Under the pieces are notes generated by a model that did not search any database, was not told the DNA's origin, and saw only the letters and a list, made by a program, of their open reading frames with translations. Both the position numbers and the translations under genes were made by a program. Below are positions 1 through 38,433 of a stretch of 38,451 nucleotides of DNA, in pieces. This stretch comes from a virus: positions 1-38,451 of the IMG/VR virus record IMGVR_UViG_3300033153_005134; one strand, written 5' to 3'. The number at the start of each line of letters is the position of its first letter. Position 1 is the stretch's first letter.

Positions 1-6
1 TTTGAT

Positions 7-459
7 ATGTCACAATGTCCTAGTGGACATGAATTTTATAATAAATATCTTGTAGAGGTATTTCCAGAGCTTGTTGTACAAGAAAAAATCAAACAAGCAA
101 AAGAATATTTACTAGAAGTAACTCAAAACGAATATTTTATTAAAGAAAGACCAGAACAAGTTACAATGGCAATTGAAATTTTATCCTTATTTGATTCAAA
201 ACTAACTGATGATTGGTTGGCAATGTGTGATGATGAATTTAATATTTTTGAAGAAGATGAATATGGGATGGTAACAAATGCTGAATGTCCAATATGCACA
301 ATGAAACATATAAAGCAAAAAGACCTGCTCAAATATGTTGTAAATGAAAATAAACTTAATAAAGAAACACTAGAAAAAGAAATTAGAGAGAGATATAAAA
401 ACTATGACGAATTTAGAGAAGAACAATATCCGACAAGGAAAAAATCTAAAAGCAGTTAA
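7..459 (+). CDS. Hypothetical protein with CPxGH and CPxC motifs
   Basis: I do not recognise this 150-residue protein. It is acidic and probably mostly helical. A CPSGH motif lies at residues 4-8 and a CPIC motif near residue 95, which together could form one zinc site; the C-terminus is Lys/Glu-rich. The frame is open back to base 1, so the true start may lie outside the window and the protein may be longer. Its 3' end overlaps the radical SAM gene by 56 bases, so the two are probably co-transcribed and translationally coupled. A partnership with that enzyme is inference from position only. Confidence 0.6.
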   Translation: MSQCPSGHEFYNKYLVEVFPELVVQEKIKQAKEYLLEVTQNEYFIKERPEQVTMAIEILSLFDSKLTDDWLAMCDDEFNIFEEDEYGMVTNAECPICTMKHIKQKDLLKYVVNENKLNKETLEKEIRERYKNYDEFREEQYPTRKKSKSS

Positions 460-1447
460 ATCACCAAACTACAATTATATATTTGATAAAGAAAGTGGTC
501 TTTTTATGCGTTGGGGAAAGAACTTTAATGATGACCCAAATATGTCTCCATTTGGTTGTGAAATTGCAGACATTGAGATTTCAACCATTTGTAGTGGTGT
601 AGATAAAAAGGTATGTCAGTTTTGCTATAAAAGCAATACATCTATTGGTAAGAACATGAATCTTAATACATTTAAAACTGTATTTAAAAATCTCCCAACA
701 AATTTAACACAAATTGCATTTGGGATTGGTGACATAGATGCCAACCCTGATATTTGGAAAATATTCAATCATTGTAGAAAAAACGATATTTCTTCAAATA
801 TAACAATTAATGGTGATAGAATGACAATGGATGACTACAAAAATTTAGTAAAATATTGTGGTGCTGTTGCTGTTAGTAGATATAACCCAAAAGACATTTG
901 TTATAACGCTGTTAAAACATTAACGGATATGGGATTAAAACAAACAAATATCCATATGCTTCTGTCAAAGGAAACTTTGAATGATGTAATGGAACTTATT
1001 GATGACATCGAAACAGATGGGCGTTTAGAAAACTTAAACGCTGTTGTATTTCTGTCTTTGAAAACTAAAGGTAGAGGGGAAAGATTTAACAGGTTGTCAG
1101 ATAAAGATTTTTCTGACATTGTAAAAATCTTAGAAGAGAGAGGTATAAGTTATGGATTTGATAGTTGTACAGCTTCAAAATATATAGATGTATCGAAAAA
1201 AGTAATGTCAAAAGAAAGGGCAGATATGGTAGAAACATTTAGTGAACCATGTGAGTCTGGATTATTTTCTATTTATATCAATGTTGATGGTTGTGCCTTC
1301 CCATGTTCATTTACTGAAACTGGTGATGGGATTGACCTAACAAAAATAAATGATTTTATGTTTGATGTTTGGTATAATAAGAATATAATATTTTGGCGTG
1401 AAAAATTATTAGACAATAAACGAGCTTGTCCAGTTTATTGCATATGA
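404..1447 (+). CDS. Radical SAM protein with SPASM/twitch-like C-terminus
   Basis: This 347-residue protein looks like a radical S-adenosylmethionine enzyme. The candidate iron-sulfur cluster cysteines are C63, C71 and C74 (spacing Cx7CxxC, followed by Tyr), wider than the usual CxxxCxxC. They sit after a conserved-looking stretch, EIADIEIST. The middle has the alternating strand/helix pattern of a partial TIM barrel, for example IAFGIGD near residue 105 and GAVAVS. The C-terminal third holds six cysteines (DSC, EPC, DGC, PC, AC, YC) in the order expected of a SPASM or twitch auxiliary-cluster domain. The ATG at 404 has a purine-rich GAGAGAG upstream and overlaps the preceding gene; the ORF ends by overlapping the next reading frame. 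The substrate is unknown. SPASM enzymes often modify peptides or proteins, but nothing here fixes the target. Confidence 0.8.
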   Translation: MTNLEKNNIRQGKNLKAVKSPNYNYIFDKESGLFMRWGKNFNDDPNMSPFGCEIADIEISTICSGVDKKVCQFCYKSNTSIGKNMNLNTFKTVFKNLPTNLTQIAFGIGDIDANPDIWKIFNHCRKNDISSNITINGDRMTMDDYKNLVKYCGAVAVSRYNPKDICYNAVKTLTDMGLKQTNIHMLLSKETLNDVMELIDDIETDGRLENLNAVVFLSLKTKGRGERFNRLSDKDFSDIVKILEERGISYGFDSCTASKYIDVSKKVMSKERADMVETFSEPCESGLFSIYINVDGCAFPCSFTETGDGIDLTKINDFMFDVWYNKNIIFWREKLLDNKRACPVYCI

Positions 1448-1464
1448 ACAATCAAGGAGAAAAA

Positions 1465-2601
1465 TTGAATAAATTTAAAGTAGTATTGGTTTTATTAGCT
1501 TTCTTATTTGTTGGGGTTGCTTGTGCATCAACATCAGTTGTTAATGTAGATGAAATTGTATCGGCAACACTTACTGCAAGTGCTGATGTCATAGTCGTAC
1601 CAACCGTAACAGAAGAGCCAACAGAAGTGGTTATATCACCAACTTTGGTGGTTAATCCAACTGAAGAAATTGCACCAGAACCAACCGAAAATGTATTGCC
1701 ACCTGACGTTTTATGCAATCAGTTTGAATTTTATATTGATATAACTATTCCTGATGATATGTATGTTAAAGCAGGTTCTAATTTTGAAAAAATATGGCGA
1801 ATTAAAAATGTTGGAGAATGTACTTGGCAACCATATTTTGAAATCACATACATATCTGGTTCAGAATTGGGATATGAAAAATCATTAATTGGTGTAGAAG
1901 TAAAACCAAATGAATTTTTTGAGGTTTCAGTTGAATTAACAGCACCAGAAGAAGTTGGATTTTATAAAACTTGGTTTATGCTTCAAGACCCATATGGCGA
2001 TAATAGAGCAGAATATTCTGGTTTCTTTGAAATTGGAAATTTGAATAAGCCATTTTATGTTAGTTTTTATGTTCCCGAAGATGAAACAATACATATTATA
2101 AGTCCTTCTGAAACAGGAACTCTTTCTGCATATAGTAACAGATATTATGGACTATATGTGGGTTCATTTGATGATGGAGAACCACTTCAAGCTTTTGCTA
2201 AATTTAATTTATCAAGCGTACAATCACACGGAAATGTTATTGATGTATTTTTTACATTTCCAAATAATACATATTATGGTAACGCTTGGAAACATAATTG
2301 CCTTAATGCATTGTCTGGTGAATACTTTAATCCTGATTGGAACACCTTATATTCTAATGATTATTGGGATATATATAGTGAAAATTCACCAGATGCTTAT
2401 ATTACATGGTGTAATTCAACCGAATTAGCGACACATAATTTTTCATCTGAAGAATTATACAGTCTAGTAAGACAAGCTGTTCGTAACGGTGAAAGAACAA
2501 TTCAATTTAAATTTGCCTTTGATGAACTTGAAAATGGAACTTCACAAATGGATTACATTGAAATGCATGATATTCAACTTTGGATTATTGTTAAGTATTA
2601 A
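1465..2601 (+). CDS. Lipoprotein with NBR1-type Ig domain
   Basis: This is a predicted exported lipoprotein of 378 residues. I chose the TTG at 1465 because AAGGAG lies five bases upstream and the product then starts directly with a signal peptide: MNKFK, a hydrophobic core, then VGVAC with the lipid-attachment Cys at residue 20. Longer readings from 1426 or 1444 add only a hydrophilic leader. A Thr/Pro/Glu/Val-rich linker follows (about residues 40-85). Then comes an Ig-like domain with the NBR1 pattern (IPDDMYVKAGSNFEKIWRI, then NVGECTW). The C-terminal half has a DNRLRE/jelly-roll flavour (AFAKFNLSSV). It would be displayed on the cell surface. It is probably a host-derived accessory gene; superinfection exclusion or envelope alteration are possible roles, both unproven. 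Confidence 0.75.
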   Translation: MNKFKVVLVLLAFLFVGVACASTSVVNVDEIVSATLTASADVIVVPTVTEEPTEVVISPTLVVNPTEEIAPEPTENVLPPDVLCNQFEFYIDITIPDDMYVKAGSNFEKIWRIKNVGECTWQPYFEITYISGSELGYEKSLIGVEVKPNEFFEVSVELTAPEEVGFYKTWFMLQDPYGDNRAEYSGFFEIGNLNKPFYVSFYVPEDETIHIISPSETGTLSAYSNRYYGLYVGSFDDGEPLQAFAKFNLSSVQSHGNVIDVFFTFPNNTYYGNAWKHNCLNALSGEYFNPDWNTLYSNDYWDIYSENSPDAYITWCNSTELATHNFSSEELYSLVRQAVRNGERTIQFKFAFDELENGTSQMDYIEMHDIQLWIIVKY

Positions 2602-2618
2602 AATTATAAACTAATATT

Positions 2619-3947
2619 ATGAAAAATAAAACAATACTCGTTTTAGTATTATTGGTTTTATCTCTGTTTGCACTTGGAATCTCAAGTGCAACAGAGCCTA
2701 TTACAAACTATGATTATTGGATTGGTATAAATAGATTAATTGACATATTTGTTGATACAAATTATGCAACTGGTCTTGATGTATCAAAACATCGTGGTGA
2801 ATTAACATGGAATTTTGAGGATGAAAGAATTGTTGAAATTATTGATTTTGTAATAATAAGGGCAGGTTATGTCGGTTATGAATCTGGTGAAATTGTAACA
2901 GATGAACAATTTGAAGCAAGTTATAATTTCTTAGAACAACATCCAAATGTATTGCGTGGAACATACTGGTATCATAGCTCACATGAAACTTGGGAAAAAC
3001 AATATGATTACTTTGTTTCAATAATGCAAGATAAAGACTTTGATTTTATTGCATTAGATTTTGAAGAAATTTATAATGATATGAATGATGATTTTGGAGA
3101 AGCTACTAAAGATTTTTTATTGGCATTACAAAAAGAGTATCCAAATAAAAAAGTATTTATTTATACACATCAACATCACTATAATGATTGGCTTGGTAAA
3201 TATCCAGAATTAGCATCTTTTCCATATTGGAGTGCCGATTATCCAACAGAATATTGGCATCACCTACACCAGTGGTCAATGCAGAATTGGATTACAAAAA
3301 GACTGAACTACAAGAATCCACCTGTACCGAAAGCAAGAATGGAAGATGATTGGGATATTTGGCAGTTTGGTGATAAAACTGGAATGGGTGAAATTCTGGG
3401 AATGGAAACCTTGAATGTTGATATAAACAGGTCAAGATTAATGTATAATGATTTTGTTAGTTTTATTGGAGTTCCTAATAGATGGAACATTGAATATACT
3501 GACACACAAATCATTAAGGCGTTTCCAGAAAAAAGGCTTGAAACCATGCATCCAGAATTGGCTCAGATTTACTTAGAGCATGAAACACAAGAAGAAGGGT
3601 GTAGTTATCTTTTGATTGATAGATTATATTTATGTGTTGATGGTTTTCCATGTGAAATTACCATAGAATATAATACAATGAAAAATAATAATGTGGCTTT
3701 CATTGAAAATAACTTATATTTACGGTCAGATAGGCTTAGCACAACCTACAATCAAGTTGTTGAGGAAAGACACAGTATTGATACTTTAGGGGTTTTTGTA
3801 GGCGAAGATGCTAGTAATATTCAAATGTACCAAATGGAATATGAAGGTATTAGGTTTGAAGACAGATATTTCGTATTATATTTAGAATATCCAGCCAATG
3901 TTAAATCAGAAGTTTTAATATGTGAAGTGGGTGGGGTTGATGGTTAA
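2619..3947 (+). CDS. Secreted GH25 muramidase (candidate endolysin)
   Basis: A glycoside hydrolase family 25 lysozyme that would cleave the MurNAc-GlcNAc bond of peptidoglycan. An N-terminal signal peptide (MKNKT, then a Leu/Val core up to about residue 24) is followed by the GH25 fold. Family signatures are GLDVSKHRG with D54, IIRAGY, the catalytic DFE pair D147/E149 in FIALDFEE, FIYTHQ, and the late DIWQFGD and VDINRSR strands. At 442 residues it is longer than a bare GH25 domain (about 200). The last 140 residues are an unrecognised domain that may bind the cell wall. No clear ribosome-binding site precedes the ATG, so it may be translated by coupling to the lipoprotein gene 17 bases upstream. 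A signal peptide implies Sec export rather than holin-dependent release. Confidence 0.88.
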   Translation: MKNKTILVLVLLVLSLFALGISSATEPITNYDYWIGINRLIDIFVDTNYATGLDVSKHRGELTWNFEDERIVEIIDFVIIRAGYVGYESGEIVTDEQFEASYNFLEQHPNVLRGTYWYHSSHETWEKQYDYFVSIMQDKDFDFIALDFEEIYNDMNDDFGEATKDFLLALQKEYPNKKVFIYTHQHHYNDWLGKYPELASFPYWSADYPTEYWHHLHQWSMQNWITKRLNYKNPPVPKARMEDDWDIWQFGDKTGMGEILGMETLNVDINRSRLMYNDFVSFIGVPNRWNIEYTDTQIIKAFPEKRLETMHPELAQIYLEHETQEEGCSYLLIDRLYLCVDGFPCEITIEYNTMKNNNVAFIENNLYLRSDRLSTTYNQVVEERHSIDTLGVFVGEDASNIQMYQMEYEGIRFEDRYFVLYLEYPANVKSEVLICEVGGVDG

Positions 3948-3963
3948 AATTAAGGGGAATTCA

Positions 3964-4443
3964 ATGAAAAAACGAATATGCAAAACTTGTGGTAAGGTCT
4001 TTAAACCAAGCAGTGGACACTTAAATTGTTGGAAATGCAGACATGAAAAATCAAAAATTGAATGTCCTAAATGTGGTAAAAAAATGCAAAGAAAATCTAA
4101 GATATGTCATAGCTGTAGAATGCGATTACTGATTGGTAAAGATAATCCAAATTGGAAAGGTGGTAAAACAAATCATAACGGATATAAGATGATACACTGT
4201 GTTGACCACCCAAGAGTAACTGGCAAGACCAGCAAATATATAATGGAACATATATTGGTTATGGAAGAATATCTTAGAAGATGCCTAGTTGAAGATGAGC
4301 ATGTGCATCACAAAAACGGAATAAAGAATGATAATCGCATAGAAAATTTAGAGCTTTGGACAACAAATCATCCAACTGGATGCAGAGTAGAAGACTTATC
4401 AAAATGGGCTTATAAAATTATAGAAAAATATGGGGCTGTTTAG
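3964..4443 (+). CDS. HNH endonuclease with N-terminal zinc ribbons
   Basis: This 159-residue protein has two or three CxxC pairs at its N-terminus (CKTCGK, CWKC, CPKCGKK, CHSC), forming zinc ribbons that probably bind DNA. An NPNWKGG motif follows. The C-terminal HNH nuclease core shows the HNH_3-like pattern EHILVMEEYL...HVHHKNGIKNDNR..NLELW. The start at 3964 is preferred over a GTG at 3922 because AAGGGG sits six bases upstream and it avoids overlap with the GH25 gene. Such free-standing HNH genes are usually mobile homing endonucleases. No intron or interrupted gene is evident beside it. Confidence 0.88.
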   Translation: MKKRICKTCGKVFKPSSGHLNCWKCRHEKSKIECPKCGKKMQRKSKICHSCRMRLLIGKDNPNWKGGKTNHNGYKMIHCVDHPRVTGKTSKYIMEHILVMEEYLRRCLVEDEHVHHKNGIKNDNRIENLELWTTNHPTGCRVEDLSKWAYKIIEKYGAV

Positions 4444-4459
4444 AATCGACTGTTTTCAA

Positions 4460-4491
4460 TCATGCGGATTTCGTTATTGATTTCCGCATGA
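4460..4491 (+). promoter_or_regulatory. Perfect inverted repeat 3' of the HNH gene
   Basis: Nine-base arms TCATGCGGA and TCCGCATGA (4460-4468 and 4483-4491) flank a 14-base AT-rich loop. No T-run follows, so it is not a classical intrinsic terminator. It could be an mRNA 3' hairpin of the upstream unit or an operator for the promoter about 50 bases downstream. Confidence 0.5.
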
Positions 4492-4510
4492 ATGTAAATG
4501 AAATCAGGAC

Positions 4511-4534
4511 AAGGGAGCATTACCCTTCAGCTCC
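4511..4534 (+). promoter_or_regulatory. Two mutually exclusive small hairpins upstream of promoter
   Basis: AAGGG (4511-4515) can pair with CCCTT (4523-4527), and the overlapping GGAGC (4514-4518) can pair with GCTCC (4530-4534). The two structures cannot form together. The element ends five bases before the -35 box of the plus-strand promoter, so it may be an operator or the tail of a read-through transcript. The role is inferred from position. Confidence 0.3.
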
Positions 4535-4538
4535 ACTA

Positions 4539-4567
4539 TTGATTTTCTTAAAGCAATATGATATAAT
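4539..4567 (+). promoter_or_regulatory. Sigma-70-type promoter with extended -10
   Basis: A -35 box TTGATT (4539-4544), a 17-base spacer and a perfect -10 box TATAAT (4562-4567) preceded by TGA, which makes an extended -10. Transcription would start near 4574, leaving a leader of about 67 bases with a small CACAA/TTGTG hairpin (4576-4589) before the AAGGAG site of the first nucleotide-operon gene. It is the best promoter I can see in the window. Confidence 0.75.
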
Positions 4568-4640
4568 TAATATATCACAAAATCTTGTGTAAATACAGGA
4601 ATAGAATTTTTAGATATAAGCAAGAACAAGGAGAAAAAAA

Positions 4641-4892
4641 ATGACAGAAAAAAAAATTAGGCAGTTACTTGCATATCCAATTGACCTAGAAGGATGTTCA
4701 AGATGTGGGGAATCACACAAAAATTTAGTTTTTAAAGAATTTATAAACCCACAGATTGTTGGCAAAGATGAAGAAAATCCAGATTATGTTTTTAATCATT
4801 GGGTTATGTGTCCAAACACAAATGAGCCTATTATGATAGCCTTAGATGTAAGTGTTAAAGATGGCACAGAAATACATGAAAGAGAGTTATAA
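4641..4892 (+). CDS. Small CxxC protein, first gene of nucleotide operon
   Basis: An 83-residue protein I cannot name. It has a CSRCG motif at residues 19-23 and a further Cys near residue 57 (VMCPNTNEP), so a small zinc-binding fold is possible. It is preceded by AAGGAG with a seven-base spacer and lies downstream of the strong promoter. The GTG of the next gene follows its stop codon directly, so it is part of the nucleotide-metabolism operon. No role in that pathway can be read from the sequence. Confidence 0.7.
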   Translation: MTEKKIRQLLAYPIDLEGCSRCGESHKNLVFKEFINPQIVGKDEENPDYVFNHWVMCPNTNEPIMIALDVSVKDGTEIHEREL

Positions 4893-5189
4893 GTGAAAAC
4901 AAAAAGAAAAAGAATAATCTCTGATGGGAAATTATATCTTTTTGACAAATTAAAATTAACAGATGATATTACCATAGCAAAAGACTATGGTATTTTTGCT
5001 GGATTAAATTGTTTGTTAGCAAGTAAAAAGTTTGGCACTAAATTTCATATAACAAAAACAATTTCCATTGACGGAATATTCGATTCAAGATTTGAAATGC
5101 AAATTGGTGGTATTAGAGGTTTTATAAATAAAATCCTATTAAAACTAATTAGATTTCTTGATTCACAAAGAAGGGATATTGAAAAATGA
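4893..5189 (+). CDS. Hypothetical basic protein (GTG start)
   Basis: A 98-residue basic protein with no motif I recognise. It has a Lys/Arg-rich N-terminus, a short Gly-containing hydrophobic stretch (DYGIFAGLNCLLA) and a C-terminal IGGIRGFINKILLKL segment that could be an amphipathic helix. It starts at GTG immediately after the preceding stop codon and ends overlapping the ATG of the guanylate-kinase-like gene (ATGA), which supports translational coupling. Confidence 0.65.
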   Translation: MKTKRKRIISDGKLYLFDKLKLTDDITIAKDYGIFAGLNCLLASKKFGTKFHITKTISIDGIFDSRFEMQIGGIRGFINKILLKLIRFLDSQRRDIEK

Positions 5190-5722
5190 TAGTTTTAATC
5201 GGTGAATCCGCTGGTGGTAAATCCACACTAGAAACAATAATTAGCAACGACTATGGATACAATAAAATTATATCACATACAACTAGACCAATGAGAAAGG
5301 GTGAGATTAGTGGTGAAGCATATCACTTTGTTTCTGAAGAACAATTTGATATTTTAAAATCAAATAACGCTTTTGCAGAATTTACAAAATATCGTGAATG
5401 GCAATATGGCATTCTTTCAGATAATTGTCAAGATAATAAATCTGTTGTAGTGGTAGAACCAACTGGATACAGACAAATACAAACACATAAAAATCTAAAA
5501 CCAATGGCATTTCATATTAACGTTGATATTAGGGAAAGACTTATAAGGCTAATAAGGCGTGGTGATGATTTGATGGAATGCTTTAGACGAATTTTCTCAG
5601 ACCAAGGGGCATTTAATGGAATCGAAAATTTAGTTGATTTTATTGTTGATAATGAAAAAAGAGAACCTGAAGTTATTGCTAAAGCAATAGTAACATTATA
5701 TGAAGGAGTAATGACAACTTGA
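5186..5722 (+). CDS. Guanylate-kinase-like nucleotide kinase
   Basis: This 178-residue P-loop kinase resembles guanylate kinase, which phosphorylates (d)GMP to (d)GDP with ATP. It has the P-loop GESAGGKST at residues 6-14, then HTTRPMRKGE and AYHF, the GMP-binding signatures of the family, and YREWQYG in the place of the family's Y-x-G-x-x-YG. The second half (FHINVDIRERLIRLIRRGDD) corresponds to the lid and adenine-binding region and diverges more. Phages use such enzymes to raise the dGTP supply or to make modified nucleotides. It overlaps both neighbours by four bases and precedes the ribonucleotide reductase, consistent with dNTP production. The exact nucleotide substrate is not certain. 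Confidence 0.82.
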   Translation: MIVLIGESAGGKSTLETIISNDYGYNKIISHTTRPMRKGEISGEAYHFVSEEQFDILKSNNAFAEFTKYREWQYGILSDNCQDNKSVVVVEPTGYRQIQTHKNLKPMAFHINVDIRERLIRLIRRGDDLMECFRRIFSDQGAFNGIENLVDFIVDNEKREPEVIAKAIVTLYEGVMTT

Positions 5723-7689
5723 GAGAACAAACAATAGATATTAGACCATTCAAACTATCAGAAACCTTTCTTGAAACATATAAACAAGTCAAACCAAAAT
5801 TTGGATTTAACGGGCTTGGTGAATTTGTTTTTTATAGAACATATTCAAGAATAAAGGATGATGGTACAAAAGAACAATGGTGGGAAGTTTGCAGAAGAGT
5901 TGTTGAATGGACTTTTACAAAACAAAAAGAATGGATTAATCAATATAAGCTTGGATGGGATAATTTAAAGGCACAAAAAACAGCCAAAGAAATGTATGAT
6001 AGAATGTTCAATTTTAAATGGCTACCCCCTGGACGTGGACTTTGGGCTGCAGGAACAGCAATTACTGAAGACAGAAAACTTTATTCTGCTCTAAATAATT
6101 GCTCTTTTGTTTCAACAGAAAACTTAAAAGACGACTTAGCAAAACCATTTGAATTTCTTATGGATATGTCAATGCTTGGTGTCGGTGTAGGATTTGATGT
6201 AAAGGGTGCTGAAAAAATAAAAATTAAAAAACCAATAAAAACAGACTATACCTATTCAATACCAGATACAAGAGAGGGGTGGGTGGAATCTTTAAGAATA
6301 TTACTTGAGTCTTATTTTCTTGGTACTGATTATGTAAGTTTTGATTATTCACTTATTAGAAATGCTGGTGAACCGATTAAAGGATTCGGTGGAATATCTG
6401 CTGGATATAAACCTCTCAAAGATATGCACACCACTCTTAGAAAAATTCTTAACAAAGAGATTGGAAAAGACATTAGAGAAACAACAATTGTTGATATTAT
6501 GAATGTTGTTGGAGTTGCTGTTATTGCTGGAAACACAAGGCGTACAGCAGAAATAGCCTTTGGTTCATCTGACGAATTTATTAATCTTAAAAATTATAAA
6601 AAAAATCCACAAAGAAGTGCTTGGAGTTGGGCAAGTAACAACTCAATTTTTGGTAAACTTGGTCAAAGCTATAAAGATATAGCAAAAAGAATTGCAGAAA
6701 ATGGTGAGCCAGGAATTTATTGGCTGGATAACGCACAAAAATATTCAAGAATGGGTGATGAAACATGGAAAGACCATAGAGCAAGTGGTGGTAATCCATG
6801 CCTAGAACAAACACTTGAATCTTATGAGTTATGTTGTCTTGTTTCTATATTCTTACCACATCATGATAGCCTAGAAGATTTTAAACATACACTAAAATAT
6901 GCATATATGTATGCAAAAACAGTAACTTTATGTGAAACCCATTGGGCTGAAACAAATAGAGTTATGCTTAGAAATAGAAGAATTGGAACAAGTGTTGGTG
7001 GCGTTGCAGAATTTATTGATAGCAACGGAATACATACCCTTAAAGGTTGGCTTGAAGAGGGATACAAAACTGTACAACAATATGATGAGATTTATAGTGA
7101 TTGGTTAGCAGTTCCTAAAAGTATAAAAACAACAAGTGTAAAACCAGATGGTTCAGTAAGTTTGCTTGCTGGTACATCCCCAGGAATCCACTTCCCAGAA
7201 GCTCAATTCTATAATAGAAGGGTCAGATTCGCCAAAAGTAGCAGGTATACAGAGCTTTTAAAGAAAGCTGGCTATAATATTGAACAAGTAGAGAATCAAG
7301 CGGATACAGTCGTTGCTTCATTCCCTGTGAAGTTTAGAAATAATATTCGTAGTGTTAGGGATGTTTCTATGTGGGAACAACTTGAAATAGCTTCATTTGT
7401 TCAAAAATATTGGGCTGATAATCAGGTTAGTTGCACAATTACCTTTGGCAAAGAAGAAGCTAATCAGATTGAACAAGCTTTAAACTTATATCAATATAAA
7501 CTAAAGGGTATTTCAATGCTACCACTTCTTGAGGAAGGGGCTTACGCCCAAATGCCATATGAAAAAATTAGTGAAAAAGAGTACAAAAAAATGTCTTCAA
7601 AACTCAAAACAATCAATTGGCATAAGGGTGAGGTTGAAGATGCAATCCCAGAACAATATTGTACAACAGATTATTGTGAGGTAAAATAA
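5719..7689 (+). CDS. rtpR: Adenosylcobalamin-dependent (class II) ribonucleotide reductase
   Basis: A monomeric class II ribonucleotide reductase that reduces ribonucleoside triphosphates using adenosylcobalamin. It has NNCSF with C128, one of the active-site redox cysteines. The loop NPCLEQ holds catalytic N359, C361 and E363, followed exactly eleven residues later by C372, the second redox cysteine (compare C408 and C419 of the Lactobacillus enzyme). At the C-terminus C648-x4-C653 forms the swinging-arm pair. PPGRGLWAAG and GGVAEF also match the family. At 656 residues it is slightly shorter than the roughly 740-residue Lactobacillus enzyme. The start is TTG, overlapping the kinase stop codon (TTGA), with AAGGAG ten bases upstream. 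It lets the phage make dNTPs with or without oxygen, provided the host supplies B12. Confidence 0.95.
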   Translation: MREQTIDIRPFKLSETFLETYKQVKPKFGFNGLGEFVFYRTYSRIKDDGTKEQWWEVCRRVVEWTFTKQKEWINQYKLGWDNLKAQKTAKEMYDRMFNFKWLPPGRGLWAAGTAITEDRKLYSALNNCSFVSTENLKDDLAKPFEFLMDMSMLGVGVGFDVKGAEKIKIKKPIKTDYTYSIPDTREGWVESLRILLESYFLGTDYVSFDYSLIRNAGEPIKGFGGISAGYKPLKDMHTTLRKILNKEIGKDIRETTIVDIMNVVGVAVIAGNTRRTAEIAFGSSDEFINLKNYKKNPQRSAWSWASNNSIFGKLGQSYKDIAKRIAENGEPGIYWLDNAQKYSRMGDETWKDHRASGGNPCLEQTLESYELCCLVSIFLPHHDSLEDFKHTLKYAYMYAKTVTLCETHWAETNRVMLRNRRIGTSVGGVAEFIDSNGIHTLKGWLEEGYKTVQQYDEIYSDWLAVPKSIKTTSVKPDGSVSLLAGTSPGIHFPEAQFYNRRVRFAKSSRYTELLKKAGYNIEQVENQADTVVASFPVKFRNNIRSVRDVSMWEQLEIASFVQKYWADNQVSCTITFGKEEANQIEQALNLYQYKLKGISMLPLLEEGAYAQMPYEKISEKEYKKMSSKLKTINWHKGEVEDAIPEQYCTTDYCEVK

Positions 7690-7696
7690 GAGTGTT

Positions 7697-8134
7697 ATGA
7701 GAGAATTAGTAGATATAAAAATAAAATATTTTAATCAAAATTGTAATATTCAAAAAATTGAAATTGGCGATTGGATTGACCTTCGTTCTTCTATTACAGT
7801 GAGACTTGTAAAAGGTGAGCATATCTTAATTCCATTGGGTGTGGCTATGGAATTACCATATGGATATGAAGCACACATCCTTCCAAGAAGTTCTACTTTT
7901 AGAACATATGGTCTTGTACTTATAAACGGAATGGGAGTTGTTGATGAATCATATTGCGGTGATAGTGACCAGTGGTATTTTAATGCATTTGCCACAATGG
8001 ATACAGTAGTGCATGAAGGTGACAGAATAGCACAATTCAGAATAATTAAAAAACAACCATTTATTACTTTTTATGAAGTTGATAAACTAAACAATCCTGA
8101 TAGAAATGGGTTTGGTTCTACAGGTATCAAATGA
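7697..8134 (+). CDS. dut: dUTPase (dUTP diphosphatase)
   Basis: A trimeric-type dUTP pyrophosphatase that hydrolyses dUTP to dUMP and PPi, limiting uracil in DNA and feeding dTMP synthesis. At 145 residues it has the usual length. The family motifs appear in order: PLGVAMELP near residue 46, PRSSTF (63-68), NGMGVVDESYCG with the water-activating D83, GDRIAQF (108-114) and the C-terminal arm RNGFGSTG (136-143). The gene starts seven bases after the RNR stop codon, has a weak ribosome-binding site, and is probably co-expressed with RNR and the kinase. Confidence 0.95.
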   Translation: MRELVDIKIKYFNQNCNIQKIEIGDWIDLRSSITVRLVKGEHILIPLGVAMELPYGYEAHILPRSSTFRTYGLVLINGMGVVDESYCGDSDQWYFNAFATMDTVVHEGDRIAQFRIIKKQPFITFYEVDKLNNPDRNGFGSTGIK

Positions 8135-8135
8135 A

Positions 8136-8285
8136 TTGCGAAACAAAAATCATAACGATGGATACCCAAATGTCAAGAACAGTTATGTTAAAAACAATTC
8201 CCTATTTGTAATTGAAATAGACAATGGTGATATTTATTATATACCACTAGCAGGAATTTATTCAATAAAAGAAACAAGACGTTAA
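8136..8285 (+). CDS. Possible 49-residue protein (TTG start)
   Basis: An open frame from TTG 8136, one base after the dUTPase stop codon, to TAA 8283. The product has a hydrophilic Asn-rich N-terminus and a regular beta-like C-terminus (LFVIEIDNGDIYYIPLAGI). It is followed at once by the operon terminator. The amino-acid pattern looks like a real small protein, but the ribosome-binding site is weak (ACAGG) and the start is non-ATG, so I am not sure it is translated. Confidence 0.4.
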   Translation: MRNKNHNDGYPNVKNSYVKNNSLFVIEIDNGDIYYIPLAGIYSIKETRR

Positions 8286-37939: not shown

Positions 37940-37994
37940 ACAAAAACCCTCCACATTTCAGCATGTCAAAGACATAGGCTTGGCGAGTATATTG

Positions 37995-38066
37995 TCAGAA
38001 AATCTGGAATCGAACCAGAGTCTTCAACTCCCAAAGCTGACGGATTACCGACTTTCCCATTTTCTG
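37995..38066 (-). tRNA. tRNA-Pro (TGG)
   Basis: A cloverleaf of 72 bases on the minus strand. It has acceptor CAGAAAA / TTTTCTG with discriminator A, a D-arm with one A-A mismatch, anticodon stem TCAGC / GTTGA (one G-T) with loop TTTGGGA and anticodon TGG, and T-arm TCTGG-TTCGATT-CCAGA. No CCA is encoded. Confidence 0.9.
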
Positions 38067-38082
38067 ATAGTTTTTAAAATAG

Positions 38083-38156
38083 AGCACCCAACAGGCATCG
38101 AACCTGTGACCTACCGCTTACAAGGCGGTTGCTCTGCCAAACTGAGCTATAGGTGC
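38083..38156 (-). tRNA. tRNA-Thr (TGT)
   Basis: A minus-strand cloverleaf of 74 bases. It has acceptor GCACCTA / TGGGTGC, D-stem GCTC/GAGC, anticodon stem ACCGC / GCGGT with loop CTTGTAA and anticodon TGT, and T-arm ACAGG-TTCGATG-CCTGT. The discriminator base is T and no CCA is encoded. Confidence 0.93.
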
Positions 38157-38164
38157 ATATGCTA

Positions 38165-38219
38165 ATTTTTATGTTGTCTGCCAACCTGTATATTTTGGAT
38201 TTTTCTGTTGTCCACCAAC
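38165..38219 (-). repeat. Imperfect 21-bp direct repeat between tRNA-Ile and tRNA-Thr
   Basis: Copies at 38165-38185 and 38199-38219 match at 18 of 21 bases (attttt-x-tgttgtc-xx-ccaac, offset 34). They lie in a 124-base gap (38157-38280) without a convincing gene; short frames on the minus strand have no start or only 23 codons. The repeat could be an iteron, binding site or coding remnant. Confidence 0.55.
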
Positions 38220-38280
38220 GATTGTAGACCCATATGTTCTACTCGAATATCAGATTTTTAAGGTGTTAGCTCACCATAGG

Positions 38281-38354
38281 TACAACCAGATGGATTTGAA
38301 CCACCGACCCTCATCTTATCAGGATGACGCTCTACCAGACTGAGCTATGATTGT
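38281..38354 (-). tRNA. tRNA-Ile (GAT)
   Basis: A minus-strand cloverleaf of 74 bases. It has acceptor ACAATCA / TGGTTGT with discriminator A, D-stem GCTC/GAGC, anticodon stem TCATC / GATGA with loop CTGATAA and anticodon GAT, and T-arm GGTGG-TTCAAAT-CCATC. No CCA is encoded. It is separated from tRNA-Phe by six bases. Confidence 0.93.
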
Positions 38355-38360
38355 ATGTAG

Positions 38361-38433
38361 TGTACCCTACTGGATTTGAACCAGTGACCTTGAGGGCTTC
38401 AACCCCATGCTCTACCGACTGAGCTAAAGGTAC
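38361..38433 (-). tRNA. tRNA-Phe (GAA)
   Basis: A minus-strand cloverleaf of 73 bases. It has acceptor GTACCTT / AGGGTAC with discriminator A, D-stem GCTC/GAGC, anticodon stem TGGGG / CCCTC pairing (one G-T), loop TTGAAGC with anticodon GAA, and T-arm ACTGG-TTCAAAT-CCAGT. No CCA is encoded. It is the first tRNA of the visible cluster; more may lie beyond the window edge. Confidence 0.93.

Follow-up and report, generated by a model that had tools for sequence, protein, structure and literature searches.

A radical SAM (rSAM) protein of 347 aa, encoded at positions 404..1447 (+) of the window (the whole 38,451-nucleotide stretch analysed, from IMG/VR record IMGVR_UViG_3300033153_005134), appears to be functionally linked to a short serine-rich tag present at the N-terminus of many otherwise unrelated proteins. 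Comparative sequence evidence supports this link well, because gene neighbourhood, co-distribution, gene fusion, the tracking of tag variant with enzyme type and a chromosomal version of the pair all point to it. The protein would be a peptide-modifying rSAM enzyme, the substrates of which would be otherwise unrelated proteins sharing the N-terminal tag. The enzyme would recognise the tag and most likely modify one of its serines, Ser11 and Ser12 being the prime candidates, and a single enzyme would thereby alter several phage proteins of different bodies by one and the same covalent change. The product of the upstream gene of the window (1..459) would be among these substrates, its body being zinc-ribbon-like and its tag lying beyond the contig edge. 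Taken as a whole, the explanation that the rSAM modifies the serine-rich tag of many proteins is probably correct.

Profile matching placed the window rSAM in phrog_7293 (E 9.6e-71), the match extending over residues 9-346 and spanning the whole protein. The score against PF04055 (Radical_SAM) was 27.5 bits as compared to a gathering cut-off of 29.5, and two relatives (L008 and L083) scored above the cut-off. The stretch that can be aligned starts at residue 9-16 in most homologues, and the start at 404, with the overlap it creates with the preceding gene, is therefore plausible. Structure prediction, which the sequence-only reading had proposed, gave an AlphaFold model with a pLDDT of 94.6, and rSAM structures top its fold-match lists, supporting a partial TIM-barrel fold. 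The nearest solved folds are SuiB (Z 24.1, residues 10-346) and SkfB (Z 22.8, residues 14-345), followed by anSME and CteB (Z ∼19), viperins (∼18), MoaA (∼17) and BtrN (15.2). SuiB, SkfB, CteB and anSME act on peptides or proteins, and the modelled window rSAM thus resembles peptide-modifying rSAM enzymes. A sequence search found no solved structure for the window protein, a search among phages found no DNA near-match of window positions 1-8200, and a pattern search of viral_contigs found no close relatives of either window protein. By tblastn the window rSAM matched 173 phage records, 171 of them with at least 80% query cover; nearly all are T4-like phages of enterobacteria, together with Vibrio phage D479. 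An alignment search of IMG/VR with the rSAM family gave 80 viral loci. The Straboviridae homologue in phage Rpl1 (record OK631812, matched at 34.8% by the window rSAM) has been published as a predicted peptide-modifying rSAM enzyme, the accessible part of that publication giving no substrate or tag.

The three cysteines of the cluster loop, C63-x7-C71-xx-C74 (590..625, +), are present as the sequence-only reading had described them and are invariant in 46 aligned sequences, the length of the loop being variable. They line up with the CxxxCxxC of relatives including LMM01 and occupy the same place in L005; the alignment thus sets them on the rSAM loop, and the outcome named beforehand as fatal to the assignment, cysteines off that loop, did not occur. 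The spacing itself had been regarded as unusual, a view that did not survive the comparison. Among 87 homologous ORFs, a count that includes the window sequence twice (as the window and as L001), the loop is x7 in 37, x3 in 29, x12 in eight, x6 in five, and x5 and x8 in one each, with six unmatched. One family spans x3 to x12 or more and x7 is common within it, and Cx7CxxC was dropped as a defining novelty. Several Bacilli homologues (L383-L385, L402, L404, L407 and L409) carry a cluster loop of the form Cx7Cx6C, a spacing that we do not know from any characterised rSAM enzyme.

Towards the C-terminus, where six cysteines had been read as an auxiliary-cluster region, four are invariant in the 46-row alignment and are candidate auxiliary-cluster ligands, namely C255 (1166..1168, +), C283 (1250..1252, +), C301 (1304..1306, +) and C342 (1427..1429, +). 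By sequence, these four would be enough for one auxiliary cluster and may belong to a Twitch domain, which is a shortened SPASM-like domain with one auxiliary cluster; the fold match to BtrN (Z 15.2) bears on the same point. A SPASM domain has a seven-cysteine pattern binding two auxiliary clusters; the window protein departs from that pattern, the four being the sole invariant C-terminal cysteines in the 46 relatives. PF13186 (SPASM) likewise gave no match to the window rSAM, and the earlier label of SPASM is only partly right; the profile does match the relative L005 and three Bacilli homologues.

The partner gene (1..459, +) lacks its 5' end. The sequence-only reading had placed its start at base 7, but the frame is open to base 1 and its start is therefore off the contig. 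The motifs CPSGH (16..30, +) and CPIC (286..297, +) are present, as that reading had said, the columns C, P and C of the latter being nearly invariant in alignment A2, and ORF coordinates agree with its 56-base overlap with the rSAM gene (404..459, +). A phmmer search among the ORFs of the rSAM loci recovered relatives of the partner (best L028:8893-9405, E 1e-9) which begin with MKIRxGFVSNSSSSSF or similar, and alignment A2 indicates that the window copy stops short of exactly this N-terminal tag part, removed by the contig edge. The zinc-ribbon-like body also occurs on other NSSS-tagged proteins. When the partner protein alone was used as the query in phages no match was obtained, the likely reasons being the loss of its tag at the contig edge and the divergence of its body. 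The idea of a modifier-and-partner pair is supported, in that genes of the partner family adjoin most homologues, contrary to the second outcome named beforehand as refuting it; the CPSGH/CPIC body is one of many, the common part is the tag, and the modification itself we infer. As for the gene of 67 aa that precedes the rSAM in Straboviridae, it was considered as a precursor peptide and set aside, no motif in common with the window partner being seen on inspection.

The tag has the N-terminal consensus [KR]-x-R-x-G-F-V-S-N-S-S-S-S-S-F, written MKxRxGFVSNSSSSSF or MKIRxGFVSNSSSSSF. Among 408 distinct tag proteins, drawn from all loci then collected, the information content is 3.6-4.3 bits at positions 1, 2, 4 and 6-16, ∼2.3 bits at 17-18 and <1 bit from position 19, the invariance of R4, F7 and N10 being imposed by the selection pattern. 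Positions 11 and 12 are serine in 408/408 proteins, though the pattern permitted Thr and Ala there. The bodies fall into 131 families, of which 94 are singletons, with lengths from ∼50 to ∼880 aa (the longest tagged proteins have 882 aa) and no common residue pattern past position 18. None of the separate tagged proteins tested against Pfam and NCBIfam gave a match above the cut-off. The serine codons of the tag are mixed TCN and AGY, about equally at positions 12, 13 and 15, and selection on the tag therefore acts on the protein; a reading of the tag as a DNA or RNA element was dropped on the same observation. The R-x-G-F segment was also examined as the target of a glycyl-radical activase, for which the motif is RVxGY. 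This reading was rejected, as some type II tags have Ser in place of the glycine and the spacing is unlike that of RVxGY. The open-access library searched yielded no mention of the tag sequence and none of an rSAM with such a tag in a phage context.

Co-occurrence of the two genes in other genomes had been suggested as a check, and it is borne out by both viral and chromosomal loci. A tagged gene lies on the same strand as the rSAM or is fused to it in 70/80 viral loci; in most loci the tagged genes number one to seven and frequently form tandem arrays with unrelated bodies, and a single record can have up to 12 tagged proteins. Ten loci are without a same-strand tagged gene or fusion (L043, L057, L059, L068, L069, L070, L071, L073, L074 and L079). 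The tag is found elsewhere on the own record of L068, L069, L070, L057, L073 and L043, and also in RB43, the record of L071; Lw1, tested as L007, has a record equal in length to that of L074. L079 is truncated by the end of its contig, and the record of L059 is a fragment of 24.6 kb. When 22 rSAM-bearing records were examined whole, the tag was present in 20, and it was not found in the 462-kb record LR756500, which has a divergent family member, or in the 24.6-kb fragment. Every T4-like record tested has two tagged genes, which in Straboviridae are separated from the rSAM by ∼20 kb. Searched by their bodies, these two T4-like proteins matched 174 and 175 phage records, with an organism breakdown approximately the same as that for the rSAM.

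In distant relatives the tag stands at the N-terminus with the rSAM domain behind it in one ORF of ∼460-530 aa, and a second scan gave 58 loci, ∼40 of them fused and some near-identical. A fused type II protein matches phrog_16999 (Fe-S oxidoreductase, E 1.7e-33), whereas the window protein belongs to phrog_7293, a phage family without assigned function. The record of neither family states a substrate, and phrog_7397 is a separate tag protein family, likewise without assigned function. The nearest folds to the model of the fused protein are again SuiB and SkfB; its tag forms a loop between two strands with pLDDT <50 at residues 11-17 and is either flexible or poorly predicted. The type II rSAMs have a CxxxCxxC loop, no invariant cysteine beyond the cluster three and no auxiliary cysteines, so that no reaction dependent on an auxiliary cluster can be shared by every type. 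Thiyl-dependent epimerisation as a mechanism for all types was dropped on the ground that type II has no further invariant cysteine.

The type II tag reads [AE]TNSSSxHS. Over all loci, near-identical ones included, type I loci have 198 SF/Y tags and no HS tag, type II loci have 62 HS tags and no SF/Y tag, and type III loci have three SF/Y tags and no HS tag. Homologous copies of one body (IDHQS..GGNDN) bear an SF tag where the phage is of type I and an HS tag where it is of type II, from which it follows that the tag goes with the enzyme rather than with the body. Both types are found in the 458.7-kb record 3300028920_000022, which has a type I rSAM with SF-tagged neighbours (L049) as well as a type II rSAM fused to an HS tag (L084).

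The association was also examined in reverse. A scan for the tag listed 80 of at least 120 stretches, in 74 distinct records, and the 50 records of at least 50 kb were searched for the rSAM, which was present at E≤1e-115 in 38/50. The controls were 33 of 80 ribonucleotide reductase (RNR) loci, 25 of the 33 on records of at least 50 kb; only 1/33 had a weak rSAM match and 0/33 had the tag. For records of at least 100 kb the rSAM was present in 28/33 tagged as compared to 1/10 control records. Fisher P values, uncorrected for relatedness of the records, are 6e-12 for all, 3e-5 for those of at least 100 kb and 1e-9 with controls of at least 50 kb. Twelve of the 50 tagged records are without a type I rSAM, five of the 12 being at least 100 kb long, and the rSAMs of 5/12 negative records look unrelated on inspection and were rejected as family members. 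Among the matches listed, which covered 37 of the 38 positive records (the remaining one had none listed), the tagged gene closest to the rSAM is at a median distance of 1.1 kb and within 6 kb in 33 of 37 records. The tags are on the rSAM strand in 127/131 cases, again among the matches listed. Tests of distance against random placement are individually weak, because the tagged genes cluster.

A chromosomal version of the pair exists in Bacilli. The type I alignment matched 3 MAG contigs when searched against 84,980 species genomes; tagged genes lie beside the rSAM in two of the three and the third contig is 3.7 kb long. Among 395 genomes of the class to which G098 belongs, the tag model matched five and the rSAM model five, with three in common. 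One of these five tag matches is weak (E 4e-4), with no tag seen on inspection, and the two rSAM genomes missed by the tag model have the variant MKIKVDHVTNSSSEVF in the next gene. Of 315 genomes of the same Bacilli order, 14 carry this rSAM at 15 places, and a TNSSS-tagged gene is adjacent at 14/15 of these loci, the exception being a 3-kb contig. Several loci are runs of three genes, encoding a membrane-protein-like product, the rSAM and a tagged protein, amid ordinary chromosomal genes. The membrane-protein-like gene precedes the rSAM at L384:8443-9252, L402:4980-5840 and L403:6058-6861, and one such gene tested against Pfam and NCBIfam gave no match. On a further Bacilli MAG contig a different rSAM/SPASM protein with the motif CGKHCKYC (L386:6191-7138) is separated by a single gene from a short ORF with the tag SNSSSTSF (7400-7552) and may represent a further type of enzyme that uses the tag.

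Contact between the tag and the active site is very probable from these observations. The tag is also likely to be the modified site itself, as one enzyme faces many bodies with the tag as their sole common feature, which makes the tag the likeliest target. An arrangement as in RiPP pathways, where the tag would be a recognition leader only, the enzyme docking on it and modifying residues of the body, with a protease perhaps removing the tag later, would agree with the N-terminal position of the tag (as in RiPP leaders), with a RiPP maturase (SuiB) as the nearest fold and with a uniform tag on varied bodies. It is nevertheless unlikely, since the long bodies (∼50 to 880 aa, 131 families) with no residue pattern after position 18 offer no common target outside the tag, the fused proteins encode the tag in the same chain as the enzyme, and none of the 408 proteins has Thr in place of serine 11 or Ala in place of serine 12. 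The two serines are the likeliest residues to be altered by virtue of this strict conservation, and the chances that a serine is indeed changed are about even. Serine oxidation, as by anSME, is the leading guess for type I by analogy, though a rather doubtful one; oxidation to formylglycine, a cross-link and other reactions are all candidates.

The tag could otherwise bind the enzyme unchanged, the tagged proteins being regulators, scaffolds or targeting partners which recruit or block an rSAM whose real substrate is a small molecule, a nucleotide or a host protein. The fold neighbours include viperin and MoaA, enzymes with small-molecule substrates, and the type II enzymes without auxiliary cluster cysteines would also suit such a role; the best folds, however, are peptide maturases (Z 24 and 23 vs ∼18 for viperins and 17 for MoaA), and up to 12 tagged proteins per record are many for regulators, making a purely binding role quite improbable. 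The distance of ∼20 kb between the tagged genes and the rSAM in Straboviridae would be compatible with mere co-inheritance of the two in an accessory module of large phages, with no biochemical link. Such an origin is very hard to reconcile with the fusions, the perfect match of tag variant to enzyme type, the gene pair in Bacilli and the recovery of 38/50 vs 1/33, and it is given next to no weight. Modification of the tag therefore remains the preferred reading. In its widest form it would mean that one enzyme, encoded by a phage or on a chromosome, attaches a single kind of covalent group to the NSSS tag in dozens of proteins otherwise unrelated, in large phages and Bacillota, giving a shared chemical handle or a protein-derived cofactor, a proposal that we consider evenly balanced between right and wrong.

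Comparison with known systems brings out both likeness and difference. SuiB (the streptide rSAM/SPASM maturase, PDB 5v1t), the substrate of which is encoded next to the enzyme, and SkfB (6efn) are the best fold matches, yet they are only 12-15% identical to the window rSAM; in place of one short precursor there are candidate substrates of full size and many kinds, and four C-terminal cysteines are invariant here. The anaerobic sulfatase-maturating enzyme anSMEcpe (PDB 4k39, Z ∼19) is alike in its rSAM fold and C-terminal cluster domain. An anSME modifies a protein Ser or Cys at the motif CxPxR and has two auxiliary clusters, whereas the tag MKIRxGFVSNSSSSSF is without CxPxR, the anSME motif is not N-terminal, and at most one auxiliary cluster is expected here. 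RiPP biosynthesis shares a gene-encoded candidate substrate with a conserved N-terminus adjoining the enzyme, but a short precursor with a core is missing here, the tagged proteins reaching 882 aa with 131 body families. An rSAM with a gene-encoded substrate is thus known, and what would be new is a whole set of full-size proteins bearing the tag where other systems have one precursor; to our knowledge, rSAM maturases serve one or few precursors, while here one enzyme would serve a repertoire.

If correct, the explanation would assign a function to an rSAM family that lacks annotation and occurs in at least 173 phage records, isolated or assembled, some of them from much-studied phages of Klebsiella and Escherichia. 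It would do the same for hundreds of tag-bearing phage products that are small and annotated as 'hypothetical proteins'. The fused type II proteins (such as L312) and the set from E. coli phage RB43, with its rSAM at HE858210 92307-93452 and two tagged proteins, make the idea directly testable in laboratory strains.

The window also has portal, terminase and tape-measure genes, and four tRNA genes (Pro, Thr, Ile and Phe) at its right end (37994-38433, −); with these it has the appearance of a segment from a larger tailed phage. Directly downstream of the rSAM, a lipoprotein-like gene (1447-2601, +) encodes an NBR1-type Ig domain (PF16158, E 1.2e-15), a domain common in Chloroflexota, which seems unusual for a phage. 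In two records the rSAM gene is broken by one in-frame TAG or TAA (G027:C1:87425-88462 and G037:C1:31752-32789), as reassignment of a stop codon in these large phages would predict.
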